From: Stentor roeselii
Lineage: Eukaryota > Ciliophora > Heterotrichea > Heterotrichida > Stentoridae
Direction of reading: 5' to 3'
NCBI GenBank assembly: GCA_006503475.1
Contig: RSEH01000220.1
Coordinates: 17,496-81,495, forward strand
DNA length: 64,000 nucleotides
The notes beneath the pieces are model-generated. The model made no database searches and was not told the origin of the DNA. It was given only the letters and a program-made list of their open reading frames with translations. Position numbers and translations under genes: made by a program. Below are positions 768 to 24,945 of the stretch, piece after piece; the first letter of the stretch is position 1, and every line of letters begins with the position of its first letter.

Positions 768-2768
768 TCAAACGAATTCAAAGTCAGGATTTGGCAAAAA
801 GTCATCACCAGCAAAAGTAAAAGAGCAGGTTTTTTCTCTAATCCAATCCTTAGCCTCTGGATGTTTTTTGATATGATCCCAGAACCTATCATTGCTGACA
901 ACAAATCCATTTTTCGTCTTGGCATACTGCAAACAATAACTATCATCATAGTCCATAGGAGGCGTTTTGATCAAGAAGCCCTGTGAGTCGATATCTTTCA
1001 ATATTTGCAAGCCGACAGGTATTTTATGTCCTTTCGCTCCACGAAACTTGAGCTCTTCAGCTCGATCTTCAAGTAAAAACTGTTCAGGGACCACGATTTT
1101 TACTTCAAACCCTTTCGAGCTGAAGTAGTTAAGCACAATTCTCAGTCCTTTACACGAAAAGTTCCCATTTCCATGCCTGACAGCGACATTCGGACCATCA
1201 ACAACGACAAGTTTCTTCACATTCTCATCAAAAGTAAGCCCAGAGAAGTCAAATCCGTGATTTGCACTTGAAAGTCCAAAGAATTCATCATCGTTATTTT
1301 CTTTTTCCTCTTCACTTTCGCAGTTTTCTAGTATTTCTTCAGCTAAGTCCTTGAAAGACTTCATGCGAATCACGATTTCTTCACTTTGCTGAGCTTGAAG
1401 GTTGTAAAAGTCCTTATGGCCGATGTAGAAGTAATGAAGAGGCAAAAAACCGATGATGCTTAAGTCTTCAGGAAGGAGAAGGTGACAGTTTGCTTTGAGG
1501 TCCTCAGGAATCATGCCAGCTGCCCTTGATAGTTCAGTTTTGAAGGAAGCACAAGCAAAAAAGTGCTTTCTGACAGATTTATAGGAAATCAGCCAGTAAA
1601 GGAAGATTAGAAGAGGACTCAACCAAGGAGATTCAGGGTGTTTGAAGTTCTGTAAAAGCTTTTGAATGAATTGAGAGAATAGATCTAATACTTGAGGAGT
1701 CTGACCTATTAGATGATCGAATATGCTAGGGTCGTGATTGAGCAGGTCTGGAAGAGCAGAGACTGAGTTTTGAGAGATGTGGACTGAAAAGATCCAGATT
1801 ACCACCATAGAAACCAGCAAGTTACCCGCATCATTTTTGCTTAAAAACACATCCATATGATCCGAGCAAAGTTTAAACAAAAACTGAAGATTTTCCGTAT
1901 TAACCCCAGTCAAGAAAATCCCTTGAATCCTAAGAAACGACAGACAAAAAGAAACATGCCAAACAGGCTGATTAGAAACTTTAGTCATCATCGAGTGTTT
2001 TTCCCACTTGCATCTCAATTCTTCATAAACAGCGACTAGCCTTTCCTTTGTGGCAGCAGGATTAGGAAGGCACAAAGAACGTGTAAACCAATAAACCGCT
2101 CCAAACAAATCACCAAGGGCTTGATGCACCACTACTTAAAGCTTACTTCCCAGCAACTCCTGACATCTTGGTGAAAACCCGAAGACTTTATTACTTCTCA
2201 TGTAAAACTCTTTCACTTCACTTAAAACTGACTTGTCTGCTTTAGACTTCTGCTTCAGGACCTCACCTAAAGACATGAAAAGTCTTCCAAAGAGCTTTCT
2301 CACGAAACTATCGTGAAAATGAGGATCTTTCAAAGGCTCCAGCACAGGCCAGGCCTGTTTGATGATCCCTGCAATGGCTTCTTTATTTTTCTGAATATTT
2401 TCCAGGTACGATGCGGAAAGTTGTGGTTTTGACCTTTTTTCTAATTTGCTTCGTCGTAGTTCTTTTTTTAATAACACCCAAAAACGCTCGTCTAGTTGTT
2501 TTGATTCGATTAACTCGAGACTGGAGGAGGTTGAAAATATTTCGCTTATGAGACTGATTAACTGCTTTTTAGGATTGGTAAAAGAAATATGCTGGTTGAG
2601 AACTGTCGCGAAGGACCCTTTGGCTTCGAGGACCTGGACCAGGTCTTTTTCTAATGATTTGAATTGTGAGTACTGAGACTGCTCTGGACTTTCAGAATTT
2701 TTTGACTCTTCAGGAACTGAGTTGTTTTTATAAAAGTGCTCGAGGACCTTTTTGTTTCGTATCGCCAT
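768..2768 (-). CDS. EST1/SMG5-7-like protein with C-terminal Zc3h12a-type ribonuclease domain
   Basis: Two minus-strand ORFs join through a 15-nt intron (2132-2146) into a 661-residue protein. The join rebuilds a continuous EST1-type helical segment: CQELLG followed by MVHQALGDL, then a segment resembling the SMG7/EST1 pattern around YW-TRSL--PNPAA. Residues ~513-661 form a Regnase/ZC3H12A-like NYN/PIN nuclease. VVVDGPNVAVRHG supplies D519 and N522, MDYDDSYC gives D603/D604, and VVSNDRFWD gives D622 and D626; these match the family's acidic metal-binding site. An acidic linker (ESEEEKENNDDE) precedes it. Family knowledge: EST1/SMG proteins act in nonsense-mediated decay or telomerase biology, and ZC3H12A domains cleave RNA. 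The likely role is endonucleolytic mRNA decay, analogous to SMG6, whose own nuclease is a different PIN type. The stop is TGA, directly followed by TAG. Confidence 0.8.
2132..2146 (-). other. 15-nt intron (EST1-like gene)
   Basis: Sense sequence GTAAGCTTTAAGTAG. It contains an in-frame TAA. Removal joins GGA-A to TG-GTG and restores an EST1-like segment. GTAA start, TAG end, A at position 10. Confidence 0.9.
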
Positions 2769-2902: not shown

Positions 2903-5900
2903 ATGTTTGTTTATCTCAGCAAAAAAGTAACCGGTATCTAGATTGCTTTGCCTTCTGAAAGTTCAGAAATCAAAACATTGGCTTGGAACCAAACTGAAGG
3001 CTGGATCGCCTGTGGAGGCAAAGATGCTATGCTTAAGGTTATCAAGTTGGAACCGCCCACTATCACAGCACCCGGGGAAGCTCCCAAGTCGAACTTGTCT
3101 ATGAACCAGACACTTGAAGGTCATCATAGTAGCATTCGAATCCTTAGCTGGAATGAGCCATACCGAAAACTCTCCAGTTCAGACCTCGACGGTCTAATCA
3201 TAGTTTGGTTCCTACGTAAGGGTGCATGGGTAGAAGAGATGATAAACAACCGAAACAAGTCAACAGTATGCGACATGAAATGGAGCAGAGACGGTCAAAA
3301 GATCTGCATCGCCTACGAAGACGGTGCAGTAATCGTAGGAAGTGTTGAAGGCAACCACATCTGGGGTAAAGACCTTCCACATCCCCTGACCCACCTTGAA
3401 TGGTCTCCAGATTCAAGAATTCTTCTTTTCGCGAGTTCTCAAGGCGAGGTCTACATTTACGACGGTGCAGGAAACTTGTTGCGTCCAGTGCAGTTAAAAT
3501 GCATGAAAGACTACAAAGGCTCTAACAAGTCAGTGGCCTGCATGTCTTGGAACTCTCCTCACAAGATGTATTCAGCTGAAGACTCTGCATTTCCTTGTCT
3601 TTGCATCGCTTTTCAGAATGGAAGAGTGCAGCTTATGAAACATGAAAATGATGAGAGTCCTATTTTGATTGATACGGGAATGACTGTCAGTTGCACTGCT
3701 TGGAATAATACGGGAAAGATTCTTGCGGTCTCTGGGTCGTTGCCTACTGAAGGAGGAGTTGTTTTGTTTTATACGAACTCGGGAGTTCATATGAGGACTT
3801 TAGCAGTTCCTGACTCTGCTTATGTTAGTTCGGTTTCTTGGGAAGGGAATGGACTTAGGATTGCTTTGTCGGTCTCGAGTATTATTTACTGTGCTAATAT
3901 TAAACCGGATTATAATTGGGCTTATTTTAATGATAGCATTGTTTATGCGTATTTGAAACAGGATCGGAATGACTTTTGTGTCGTGTTTTGGAATGTGAAA
4001 ACTAATGAGAGGTATGTGAAGTATATTAAAAAACTCATGCATACTTGTGCTTTTGCTGATCATTCTTTACTTGTTACCAAATCGGAAGACTCAAACCAAC
4101 TGTGGACCTTAACCCTATGCAACTCAATCGGTTGTCCAGTAGACACAAAAAAGATAAACATCGAGCCTTTATTCGTCTCAATGAACAAAACCCACATAAT
4201 ACTAAGCAGTACCGACAGTATCTACGTCTGGCAATACCGTTCACAAGTATCCCGTCTTCTGTCACAAGACACATCAAAGCGTAAAATGGGCAGAGAGAAC
4301 GCGTTCAACATAGACGAGACTCCAGACCTAAACGCCTTATACGACTCAGAACGTTTTCAAAAGCCAAGCCGGAGCAGCCAAGACCCAGTCACATGCATCG
4401 TCGCTGGAGAAGGCTTTTTCCTTGTAGGTCGTTCTTCAGGAACCGTGAACAAATACACGATTCCTCACGTTGCCCTTGAATGTCGCTACAAACTGCCTTG
4501 CCGGCCACAGCTCATCGGCATCAACTGCAACTCAAGTAAAATCTCAGTCATCGACATCAACGGAGTCCTTTACTTTCACAGTCTCGAAGCCAAGGGCCAG
4601 GCAGGCTTTCGAGGAGAAAGTCTTGAAACTGTGAGAAAAGATGTTTGGGATATGAAGTGGAGCACTGATAACCCTGACCTTATCGTCATCATGGAAAAAA
4701 CACGGATGTTTGTTTTGCAGGGAAATGAATCGGAAGACCCTGTTATTTCTTCTGGGTACCTCTGTGAGTTTAAAGACCTGGAAATCAAAGCAGTGCTTCT
4801 TGATGAAATATTTAAAAATCCTGACTCGTTCTCAACACCTGATGAACTGATTCTTAGATTTGAAACTAGAAGTTTAAAAGACACAAGAGAAATGGTCAGC
4901 AAGTTAGATGTCAAAGAGGCTTTTTCACATGTCGAAAAAAATCCTTATCCGAAACTTTGGAGAATCGTTGCTGAAGCCGCTTTGGGAAAGTTGGAACTTG
5001 ATGTGGCTCAGAAGGCTTTTGTTAGAATTGATGATTATCAAGGACTGCTTTTTGTTAATAAGCTGAAAAAGTTGAATGATCCTCAGAAACAAAAGGCGGA
5101 AGTTGCTGTTTTTTTTAAGAATTATGATGAAGCTGAAGAGATTTATAAGAGTATTGATAGGAAAGATCTTGCTCTTGATATGCGTGTAAGGATTGGCGAC
5201 TGGGTCAGGGTTTTGCAGCTTATTGATCAGGGTGTTGGAAATGATGAACTTATTACTACTTCTTATAATTCGATTGGAGATCATTATGCGGAAAGGTTTA
5301 GGTGGAAAAAGGCAGCGAGTCATTATGCCTTGGCACAAAATATCCCTGCTATGGTTGAAAGCTACTTTCATGCTGAGGATTATGATAATTTGTTGAAAAT
5401 TGTTGAACAGTTACCTGAGGAAGACCCCTTGCTTGAAAGTATTGCTGAGAGGTTTCAGGCTGTTGGCATGTGTGACTATGCTGTTAAGGCTTATTTGAAG
5501 GTTAATAACGTGCGTGCTGCAATCGACTGTTGTGTCCTACTAAATCAATGGAATCAAGCAATCGAATTAGCTGAAAAAAACAACTTCGTTCAAATCGAAG
5601 CTCTCCTCTCCAGATATGCAAGTGTTTTAATAGAAGAAAACAAAACAATAGAAGCCATAATGCTCTACCGTAAAGCAAATAGAAACACTGAAGCAGCTAA
5701 AATTCTAAATAAAATCGCTCAAGATCTGGGAAAAACCCAAGCAAATCCTTTGACAATGAAAAAAATTTATGTGATGGCCGCTTTGGAAGTCGATTCTTAC
5801 AAAAAACGAGTAATTGAAGCTCAAATCACTGGAACAGGAAATACTGTCAGGACTCTTGACTCTTTAATCACCAGCGATATCAACACCATGTCTGATAAAA

Positions 5901-6451
5901 CATTGGACAACCCCTGGCGTGGGGCTGAAGCTTTTCATTTTTATCTTCTGACTCAGAGGCAGTTGTATGAAGGAGACTATGAATCAGCTCTTAGAACTTC
6001 TTTGAGACTTGCGGAATACGAGAATATTTTAGAGACTCGAGATATTTATTCGCTTATTGCTTTAAGTGCTTTTTTCTCTGGGTATTATAAGGAATGCTCG
6101 AAAGCTTTTGTTAAACTTGAAAATCTGCCTGGCCAGACTGATGAAGATCGAGGGCTTTATGAAGACTTGGCCGTTGCCATATTCGTGAAACACCCGCCAA
6201 GAGACCCAAAGCCAATAATAGTAAAATGTCCAGGTAAGAACTGTTCAAACTCAGTTCCCGACACAGTGACAAACTGTTCAGAGTGCGGTTCAAACTTCCC
6301 AGCATGCATAGTAAGTGGAAGACCAATAATGGAGAAGTCTTACGTGCAGTGCATGAACTGTAAGCATAAGGCAATCGAGACCGAGCTTCAAAGACTTCGT
6401 TTAAAGGCCTGTCCCCTTTGCCACTCAGTGATTAAACTTAGAAATAGGTAA
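2903..6451 (+). CDS. WDR35/IFT121: Intraflagellar transport protein 121 (IFT-A subunit)
   Basis: The first ATG is at 2903, and a 15-nt intron at 2927-2941 removes an in-frame TAG. The spliced N-terminus MFVYLSKKIALP corresponds to the MFFYLSKK start of animal WDR35, which decides both the start and the intron. The product is 1177 residues, close to the animal protein (~1180). The first ~540 residues form two WD40 beta-propellers, with family stretches such as SNLSMNQTLEGH, EEMINNRNKS and MRHENDQNP-like MKHENDESP. TPR-type helices follow to ~1080 (NAWRGAEA-like NPWRGAEAFHF, LAQRQLYEG-like). The tail has a Cys-rich zinc module (CPGKNC, CSEC, CMNC, CPLC). IFT121 is a core subunit of the IFT-A complex, which moves cargo along cilia. 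The next gene starts 13 nt downstream on the same strand. Confidence 0.97.
2927..2941 (+). other. 15-nt intron (IFT121 gene)
   Basis: GTAACCGGTATCTAG, with an in-frame TAG as its last codon. Removal gives the conserved WDR35 N-terminus. It lies 24 nt after the start codon, so exon 1 is only eight codons. Confidence 0.95.
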
Positions 6452-21471: not shown

Positions 21472-21565
21472 AAGATGATGGAAATATTTAGATGAGATTT
21501 TAGACGAAAAATAGGATTTGGGTTTTTTAACAAAGTTTATAGACAACACTACCTATATTATATTA

Positions 21566-22426
21566 TCATTCGAATTTGATCAGCTTGGACTTTGGAGTAC
21601 TTAGCAAATGTTCACTTTCTATTCCATTTGCACTTCGAGGCTGAGTCAAAGAAAGGTCACTTAGATTTGAGTATTTGGCCGACATCGGAGTTCTAGGACA
21701 GGTCAAAGGAGTGAGCACATCAGCCTTAGGACATCGCTCCCTTAAACTTTTCCCATCAAATCCCTGAACTTTATTCTGCATAAGCGCAAGATTCCTTTTT
21801 TCCATTTCAATATTTTTCCAAGAGTTCTCAATTTCGCTTCTCTGACAAGCGAGACTTTCTTCCTTCAACTTGAGCTGATACCTAATTTTAGCCAAAAGAC
21901 TGAAATCTCGAGTCGAAAGTTCTAAAAACGATCCACTTTCGCCTCTTGAATGATTTTTTTCATATTTTTTCAGCTTTTCAAGTCTTTTCAGATATTTTTC
22001 CCTTGCCCGCTTCAACTCATCAACAACAATTTGCAACTGCATAATTTTAAAGCGATATTCATCGTCATTAGAATTGTTTTCTCCTTCTGTTTTTATTGAA
22101 ATTCTCACAGAACCTATTTTTCCGCAAATATTTCTGATGTCGAACCAACCTGAGCAGTCTTTGGCTGGAATTAAACTTTTCCCGAGCAAGATTTCTTTTA
22201 AGATGAGTGGATTATGTAAAAAAGTGATTTCTATCCCACCTTCGTTGTATTCAAAATTGAAACTTTGGTTCCATACTGGAGATACTTCGGAGACTGTCCT
22301 GCTTTTCACTGAAAATCCTGAAAAATTTATGAAGAATTGACAGTTTAGGGAAAGGAGGTTCAGACTTTTGTCGAATGTCGCTTGATGAACCTCGATGTTT
22401 AGGTTTAAATTAGGACCGGATTCCAT
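21566..22426 (-). CDS. C2-domain coiled-coil protein
   Basis: 286 residues. The first ~110 look like a C2 beta-sandwich: LNLLSLNCQFFI, SRTVSEVSPVWNQSFNFEY (the PxWNE/Q-F signature of C2 domains) and GWFDIRNICG...VRISI, as in the end of a C2. Residues ~120-215 form a coiled coil, and the tail is Ser/Pro-rich. Ca-binding aspartates are not obvious, so it may be a Ca-independent C2 as in ciliary transition-zone or centrosomal proteins (inference). The gene starts 2 nt beyond the stop of the gene at 22429. Stop TGA followed by TAA. Confidence 0.7.
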   Translation of the reverse strand: MESGPNLNLNIEVHQATFDKSLNLLSLNCQFFINFSGFSVKSRTVSEVSPVWNQSFNFEYNEGGIEITFLHNPLILKEILLGKSLIPAKDCSGWFDIRNICGKIGSVRISIKTEGENNSNDDEYRFKIMQLQIVVDELKRAREKYLKRLEKLKKYEKNHSRGESGSFLELSTRDFSLLAKIRYQLKLKEESLACQRSEIENSWKNIEMEKRNLALMQNKVQGFDGKSLRERCPKADVLTPLTCPRTPMSAKYSNLSDLSLTQPRSANGIESEHLLSTPKSKLIKFE

Positions 22427-22428
22427 AT

Positions 22429-24945
22429 TTAACGATATTTATTTTTTTTTATTACCTGCTCACCCCGTGCCCTTTGATTATCATGAATTTTGAGTATCCT
22501 TTCCATAGCAGGTTCAAGTGAATACAACTTATTAAACTCCTCATCACTTTCATCAGAAATCAAATCTTTCAAGCTATAATCCTCATCAATATCTCGATAA
22601 TTCATATGATGCAAAGACTTAAGAGTCAACCTTTGAGTAAAAATTTCAGGACTTCTTCTTTTTCCCAATTCCGGATTCTCCAAATTTTGCAAACTCGACC
22701 TTAACCCAGAAAACCTGAACTTATTAGAATACCCTTCAGGATTAACAAGTCTATGAACACTTTTCAACATCGGTTGAGGACTAAGCACTTTCTGTTTGTT
22801 GAAAACTGGAGAAAGATTTAAAATTGTAGGATTTTTCTGAAATTTTTCAAGTTCACTTTTTTTCTGAGGACTTATTTTAAACTTGTAGTTGTTTGAAGGG
22901 TCTGACTTGGGAATACGAGTTTTTTTTTCAGGGCTGAAGCCAGGGCCGAAAGATTTGATTTTTTGTTTGAGTCTTTGAAAGTTAAGGATTTCTAAAGAGT
23001 CCAGAAGAAGGACTCTTTTTTCAGATAAGGATTTAAAGGCGTGGTTCGTGATCAGTCTTCTGTCGAACTCTGGGGAATAGAAAAATTCAGACATCTTGTC
23101 GAGTGAATCGAAAAAATGATGTAAGGTCATGTTTCTTGTGTTTATTGCTGTTTTTTTAAAGATACTTATCAGGTTTTCCTTACTCGTTGCTCGAAGTCCT
23201 TCGTTTTTTCCTTGGATTAAATGAAAATCATTGCAAAACTTTAAAAATTTTCCAAGGTTCCAGGTTGTATTACTAAATTCAAGTGATTTGAATGTCGGTT
23301 CTGATCCTTGAATTTTTTGAAGTTTTGCGTAAAAGAAGAAAATTTCTTCTAAATTTTTTTTATAGTTTTCTTCTAATTCTTCTGATTTTCTTGATAAGCC
23401 CAGATCTGATATTATTTTCATTAGTTTAAATAAAGTGAATGAAATAATATCGGATAATGAGTCGTCTTCTAAGGTATCAAGAAGAGAACGAAAAATATCT
23501 GCGGTTTTTGTCATTTTTCCCAAAAATGATTTTTTTTCTTTTTGATATTTTTCGCCCCAGAGGTTCATAATTTCAGAGAATTCTAAAAAGTTAAGTCTTG
23601 GCTCGATGATTCTTTTTGAGATTTTCAGGTATTTGCCAGGGTAGAGACTTGAATACAAGGTTTTGAAGGTGATTCTGTAATGATTATAAGGAAAAATGTT
23701 TAACTTTTTTAAAATGTTGATAAAAAGGTCGTCGAGGTTTCCAAGTTTTACTATTTCGCCCTTGCCTGAAAACTTTTTAAAAACTTTTTTAAATTTCGAC
23801 TCATTTTTCGCTATAGTCAAGGTAAACCAAGGGTTAACATCTTCCGATTCTTCAAAAAAAGTTTCAATATTTTGTAAATTAACAGTAATTTTTTCACTTT
23901 CTTCATCTGAAGAACTACAAATTTTAATTGATTTTTGGTTTTTTTCATTTTTTGCAGGTTTCGACTCATCTAAAGTATTAGGACTTGACTTTGAATTCAA
24001 CAATGAAAAAAAGCTTGTCCGTTGGTATTCTTCATAACTATCATCATCATCAGAAGCCTTTTTGATATGACTTCCAAATCCAGTGATGCTCATCATCATA
24101 GGACTAACAGACTTCAAAGCACTTCCAGCTCCAGTAAAGTTCAAAGTAGGACTGGGAGGTTCTTTATTCGATTCACTTTTTTCACTTTCATTTGCTTCAT
24201 TAATGACGAGATAACTATCTTGATTAGAGAGTCCAGTGAACTTTCTGTCTCCTTTCCTCATAATATTCCCTTTATTATCAGAGTCTTCATATTTAGTGAC
24301 TTGAATAACAGGAAAATCAAATTTTTCTTCTTTTCTTTGAAGTTCTTCAAAGACCTGCTGAATTTCTGTTTTGGCTATGGAAGAACTTTGTCGATACCCG
24401 TCATCGACTCGGATTTCACTCAGGTCAAGCTCGTCTCCAACTGTTTCTAGCTTCGGCTCGAAAAGGTCGTCAACGATGCTCATGTTTGAAATAGTGAAAG
24501 GAGGAGAGTCGTCTTCTCTTTTGATCTTTTTTAATTTTACAGGCTTTACAAGCAACTTGTCCTTTGGCTTCAGGGAAAACCAGGCTTCGCTAATGAACTG
24601 CGAAAGAGTCTTTTGAGGTTTTTCCTTCAGATATATTTCTTCTAAGATCATATTCGCGAGTCTTCTTTGAAAAGCTTCAAAGGTGATGTTGTTTGTATCG
24701 ATTTTATCGTTTTTATCATTTTTGTTTGTTTTTTCACTGAACTTTTCAAGAGATATTTTAAAAGTTTGGTTGAGAAAATCTTCAGTTTTTGATAAAAGAA
24801 CAAGTAAAGGTTGACCGGCTTTAATTGGATGTTTTAAAGAATGGAAAATTTCTAAAAGCCTTTTATCTTCTGAGAGTTTATTAAAACAGGACCAGAGACT
24901 TTTAATATGATTGCTTTGACCTCCTTGGTTTCTTGACTTAGACAT
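22429..24945 (-). CDS. Unknown 838-residue ciliate protein with EF-hand-like helical modules
   Basis: No firm family. An N-terminal helical region (KSLWSCFNKLSEDKRLLEIFHSL) is followed by a long acidic/Ser-rich disordered part (~130-390), then a helical domain (~400-720) with a segment of the type W-x4-FLKFCNDFHLI...ENLISIFKKTA...LHHFFDSLDKMS. This resembles p25-alpha/EF-hand-like modules of protist cytoskeletal proteins, but without clear Ca loops. The C-terminus is basic. Stop TAA. Confidence 0.7.
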   Translation of the reverse strand: MSKSRNQGGQSNHIKSLWSCFNKLSEDKRLLEIFHSLKHPIKAGQPLLVLLSKTEDFLNQTFKISLEKFSEKTNKNDKNDKIDTNNITFEAFQRRLANMILEEIYLKEKPQKTLSQFISEAWFSLKPKDKLLVKPVKLKKIKREDDSPPFTISNMSIVDDLFEPKLETVGDELDLSEIRVDDGYRQSSSIAKTEIQQVFEELQRKEEKFDFPVIQVTKYEDSDNKGNIMRKGDRKFTGLSNQDSYLVINEANESEKSESNKEPPSPTLNFTGAGSALKSVSPMMMSITGFGSHIKKASDDDDSYEEYQRTSFFSLLNSKSSPNTLDESKPAKNEKNQKSIKICSSSDEESEKITVNLQNIETFFEESEDVNPWFTLTIAKNESKFKKVFKKFSGKGEIVKLGNLDDLFINILKKLNIFPYNHYRITFKTLYSSLYPGKYLKISKRIIEPRLNFLEFSEIMNLWGEKYQKEKKSFLGKMTKTADIFRSLLDTLEDDSLSDIISFTLFKLMKIISDLGLSRKSEELEENYKKNLEEIFFFYAKLQKIQGSEPTFKSLEFSNTTWNLGKFLKFCNDFHLIQGKNEGLRATSKENLISIFKKTAINTRNMTLHHFFDSLDKMSEFFYSPEFDRRLITNHAFKSLSEKRVLLLDSLEILNFQRLKQKIKSFGPGFSPEKKTRIPKSDPSNNYKFKISPQKKSELEKFQKNPTILNLSPVFNKQKVLSPQPMLKSVHRLVNPEGYSNKFRFSGLRSSLQNLENPELGKRRSPEIFTQRLTLKSLHHMNYRDIDEDYSLKDLISDESDEEFNKLYSLEPAMERILKIHDNQRARGEQVIKKNKYR

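Follow-up and report, generated by a model that had tools for sequence, protein, structure and literature searches.

A probable SMG6L gene in a Stentor-like ciliate joins an EST1-type domain to a Regnase-type NYN nuclease

For the ciliate Tetrahymena thermophila, a review citing Tian et al. 2017 (NAR, gkx256) describes SMG6L as a member of the SMG5/6/7 family with a C-terminal NYN nuclease that appears to work with UPF1 in nonsense-mediated decay (NMD); its conservation is said to extend to many protozoa (PMC6173133). The title of Tian et al. 2017, as it stands in the reference list of that review, speaks of a protozoa-specific nuclease. Human SMG6 (EST1A) is built on a similar plan, an EST1/14-3-3-like helical part being followed by a C-terminal nuclease, and for its mechanism it is reported that SMG5 completes the active site of the SMG6 PIN domain and that the composite SMG5–SMG6 site is needed (PMC12923823). 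NYN domains also occur in the Regnase proteins (ZC3H12A-C) and in KHNYN. In Regnase/ZC3H12 a CCCH zinc finger is placed after the NYN domain. NYN domains have a PIN-like fold, according to the title of Anantharaman and Aravind 2006.

Here, we examine a gene near one end of a window of 64,000 nucleotides (the whole stretch of DNA that was analysed) whose predicted product of 661 aa carries an EST1_DNA_bind domain (PF10373) and an RNase_Zc3h12a NYN nuclease (PF11977). In a Pfam scan with 24,736 models both matches were far past chance level, at 55.8 bits for PF10373 against a cut-off of 22 and 92.3 bits for PF11977 against a cut-off of 23, and nothing else in the protein rose above its cut-off. 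The fusion of the two domains at the DNA level is secure and independent of the predicted intron, because both match within the uninterrupted frame of exon 2 (PF10373 52.1 bits, PF11977 92.9 bits). The coordinates of the gene and its parts are collected in Table 1.

Table 1. Features of the SMG6L-like gene, in window coordinates
Feature	Window position	Strand	Protein residues	Remarks
Two-exon gene	768-2768	(-)	661 aa	No internal stop after exon joining
Exon 1	2147..2768	(-)	N-terminal 207 aa	Open frame from ATG; presumed start of 14-3-3-like/TPR part
Intron GTAAGCTTTAAGTAG	2132..2146	(-)		15 nt, GT..AG, phase 1; predicted
Exon 2	768..2131	(-)		Bulk of EST1_DNA_bind domain and NYN nuclease
EST1_DNA_bind (PF10373)	1431..2153	(-)	206-441	Spans intron; Pfam E 6.6e-15
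RNase_Zc3h12a NYN nuclease (PF11977)	780..1217	(-)	513-658	Pfam E 3.2e-26; 7ndh E 2.2e-15
Acidic-motif stretch	876..1199	(-)		DGPNVA, YDDSY, SNDRFWD; residue alignment to ZC3H12C and ZC3H12B
DGPNVA	1199-1182	(-)	519-524	
YDDSY	950-936	(-)	602-606	
SNDRFWD	896-876	(-)	620-626	

The C-terminal domain is an NYN nuclease of the Regnase type. At E up to 10 it drew 13 PDB sequences, of which the best 10 were all ZC3H12A/B/C or KHNYN (E 2.2e-15 to 4.3e-12), with ZC3H12C (7ndh) among them and KHNYN represented by 8wzc at E 2.5e-12; the remaining three were weak (E at least 0.12), two being proteinaceous RNase P 2 and one a “major head protein”. SMG6 PIN chains exist in the PDB; none was among these 13 sequences, the Pfam scan (E up to 1) matched no PIN family to the 661-aa protein, and a C-terminal PIN domain of the metazoan SMG6 type was not found. 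The alignment with ZC3H12C and ZC3H12B preserves the D and N of DGxNVA as well as the two D residues in each of YDD and SND...D, and the domain has the conserved acidic residues of the Regnase/ZC3H12 type. Their numbering and catalytic roles are presumably those of Regnase-1. Unlike Regnase and KHNYN, the Stentor protein has no Pfam match to a CCCH zinc finger and stops three residues past the nuclease match, and it carries an EST1-type partner domain instead.

The upstream part of the protein also aligned weakly with human EST1A/SMG6 (4um2), at E 0.022 with the first 452 aa as the query and at E 0.071 with the whole protein; the aligned stretch, aa 165-252, has an E of 0.17 of its own and runs across the splice junction, which lies at aa 208. 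The N-terminal EST1 domain PF10374 was absent from the protein's Pfam matches at E up to 1 and was unmatched in the whole genome as well, in a search that had no positive control, and exon 1 alone gave no Pfam match above cut-off. On the PF10373 match and the weak 4um2 alignment, with PF10374 unmatched, we class this part as an EST1 helical domain of the SMG5/6/7 type. With NCBIfam, exon 2 had no match and exon 1 a single one, far under its cut-off; a scan of viral contigs turned up eight pattern-bearing stretches but no relative; and single-sequence structure prediction for the exon-2 frame (mean pLDDT 37.7) gave an unusable model.

The sequence-only reading of this locus had seen an EST1-like helical part joined to a ZC3H12A/NYN domain and not to an SMG6 PIN, with the acidic positions of the three motifs kept, and the Pfam search, the PDB sequence search and the residue alignment bear this out. 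Of the profiles that it had put forward, EST1_DNA_bind and RNase_Zc3h12a found their matches, and there was no match to a PIN family or to the N-terminal EST1 profile. Its supposition that the pair was undescribed fails, because the review reports Tetrahymena SMG6L with that same architecture (PMC6173133). The EST1 and NYN pair is already known, as the ciliate NMD nuclease SMG6L, and the finding is not new; among the literature matches listed, the gene is undescribed for heterotrichs. We consider it very probable that the gene is the SMG6L of a Stentor-like ciliate, the comparison with Tetrahymena SMG6L being one of described architecture. The two differ in organism, and the Stentor gene has a standard-type code and a 15-nt intron. 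A kinship that rests on described architecture leaves some room for an independent EST1–NYN fusion in the Stentor lineage, resembling the SMG6L of other ciliates without descent from it; however, the same pair is reported from another ciliate and as conserved in many protozoa (PMC6173133), a single origin is simpler, and we hold a separate fusion to be very unlikely.

The host assembly (44.4 Mb, 522 contigs), smaller than the genome of Stentor coeruleus, was searched with profiles exon by exon, a procedure that a divergent SMG5/7 paralogue could escape. At E up to 0.001, PF11977 and PF10373 had one match each, both at the locus described here; a second PF10373 candidate scored under the limit. 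The Stentor genome differs from the human one in offering no second PF10373 match as a candidate for SMG5 or SMG7, and in having, beside a nuclease of the Zc3h12a/NYN family, no match to PIN_4, the family to which we take the PIN domain of SMG6 to belong. In the PIN_4 search 9 of the 14 control genomes were positive, all of them prokaryotes.

The profile UPF1_Zn_bind had eight matches in the genome, one of them strong (UPF1 CH domain, 198.9 bits) and lying within a frame of 852 aa that on our own reading probably holds a complete helicase. There are six S/T-Q dipeptides in this frame, of which the final 60 residues hold just one, a TQ; its short tail is that of the best frame as read, with 100 codons downstream covered and further exons possible. 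The seven other UPF1 zinc-binding matches (52-83 bits; C515:27598, C90:76943, C90:79894, C49:932, C505:52927, C505:56811 and C1:67473) include two pairs, on C90 and C505, the members of each a few kb apart. These seven suggest a UPF1-like protein family alongside the main UPF1. UPF2 (34.1 bits, 52 of 133 positions), UPF3 (56.9 bits) and Mago (213.8 bits) were matched as well, and this genome context, with its UPF1, UPF2 and UPF3 family matches, is in keeping with NMD. The presence of Mago says little about the use of the EJC, because in Tetrahymena, which has Mago, its knockout is reported to have left NMD targets unchanged (PMC6173133). Neither SMG1 nor SMG8/9 had a genome match in searches lacking a positive control, and their absence is weak evidence because the controls yielded nothing either. 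For SMG1, a survey reports it missing in all the Alveolata genomes that it covered (PMC5709506); Tetrahymena, where UPF proteins are present as they are here, is stated to have lost it (PMC6173133).

By analogy with Tetrahymena, we infer a role for the Stentor protein in NMD together with UPF1. At a ribosome halted on a premature stop codon, UPF1 would serve as the docking site for the protein's EST1/SMG5-6-7-type helical scaffold, after which the C-terminal NYN domain would cleave the mRNA via its metal-bound acidic residues. Recruitment might proceed without SMG1-type phosphorylation, which we infer from the short tail of the best UPF1 frame and the lone TQ of its final 60 residues. The dominant contact between human SMG6 and UPF1 is reported to be phosphorylation independent and to map to a region next to the 14-3-3-like domain (PMC4132714); for Tetrahymena, the review treats direct binding of SMG6L to UPF1 as uncertain (PMC6173133). 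Since the genome gave neither a second PF10373 match nor a PIN_4 match, the NYN domain would need to function by itself or as a self-dimer. A tentative proposal, which we regard as doubtful, is that NMD is run here by one SMG5/6/7 protein whose NYN domain suffices as the nuclease, whether single or self-dimerised, and which reaches a short-tailed UPF1 in the absence of SMG1.

The function of the protein is read here from sequence alone and yeast Est1 belongs to the EST1_DNA_bind family too, which would allow for a telomerase-associated Est1-like protein or for a general mRNA-decay endonuclease uncoupled from NMD. Such a function is highly improbable in a protein whose nuclease domain keeps its acidic motif residues and which is the sole PF10373 match in a genome where the UPF1, UPF2 and UPF3 families are matched too; an NMD role is, moreover, reported for Tetrahymena SMG6L (PMC6173133), and a role in NMD together with UPF1 is the reading that we prefer.

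Read without splicing, the gene's frame meets an SKL-stop within the 15-nt intron, and once the exons are joined the EST1_DNA_bind score goes up, from 52.1 to 55.8 bits. We scanned the window for GT..AG candidates 10-25 nt long that, when excised, connect frames of 100 codons or more and, when kept, lead straight to a stop. The scan returned two 15-nt candidates, one being the intron described here, and one of 16 nt, together with one each of 12, 19 and 23 nt and two of 22 nt; the scan by itself is little proof, because candidates of these other lengths also emerge. Introns in Stentor are reported to be 15 to 16 nt long (PMC9505925). The predicted intron is backed indirectly, by the higher joined domain score, by the weak SMG6 alignment that crosses the junction and by its Stentor-typical length. 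It is also very improbable that the 15-nt stretch is a genuine gap between two separate genes, for although the unspliced frame does stop there, the intron is a prediction from the letters of the DNA and the same scan yields candidates of other lengths, the gain in score on joining, the weak SMG6 alignment across the junction and the match to known Stentor intron lengths (PMC9505925) all speak against it, and both Pfam domains share one frame regardless.

A neighbouring gene on the plus strand (2903-6451) lies head to head with the SMG6L-like gene. It has an apparent 15-nt intron of its own, GTAACCGGTATCTAG, at 2927-2941, after eight codons, and its product is one that we take to resemble a WD-repeat/IFT121 type protein. 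Downstream of the SMG6L-like gene is an AT-rich tandem array (475-694; period 37, 5.8 copies, 77% matches) whose copies at 553-589 and 590-626 match each other exactly.

Exon 2 ends with TGA and a TAG follows directly; for this reason a code with TGA as Trp, which is how Blepharisma reads it, was considered. With TGA taken as sense, the window holds 29 frames of at least 300 codons. Seventeen contain no TGA, one of them 2622 codons long with 31 TGG; eight contain one to three TGA, and each of these includes a standard-code frame that is merely lengthened at one end. Four have 9-13 TGA, three of them lying mostly opposite a standard-code frame and one (21543-22508) mostly not. On these counts the standard code is preferred. 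Such a standard-type code, taken with the 15-nt intron, points to a heterotrich, for example Stentor (PMC9505925). The UPF1 frame contains 10 TGG, its stop being TAG; since the search behind it treated TGA as a stop, its freedom from TGA is partly by construction.

The EST1–NYN gene opens no new class of protein; what it adds is a likely SMG6L from a Stentor-like ciliate. If NMD were indeed run there by a single protein, its NYN route would contrast with the composite SMG5–SMG6 PIN site reported for the human enzyme (PMC12923823). A likely Stentor SMG6L would agree with the NYN-type NMD nuclease having arisen early within the ciliates.
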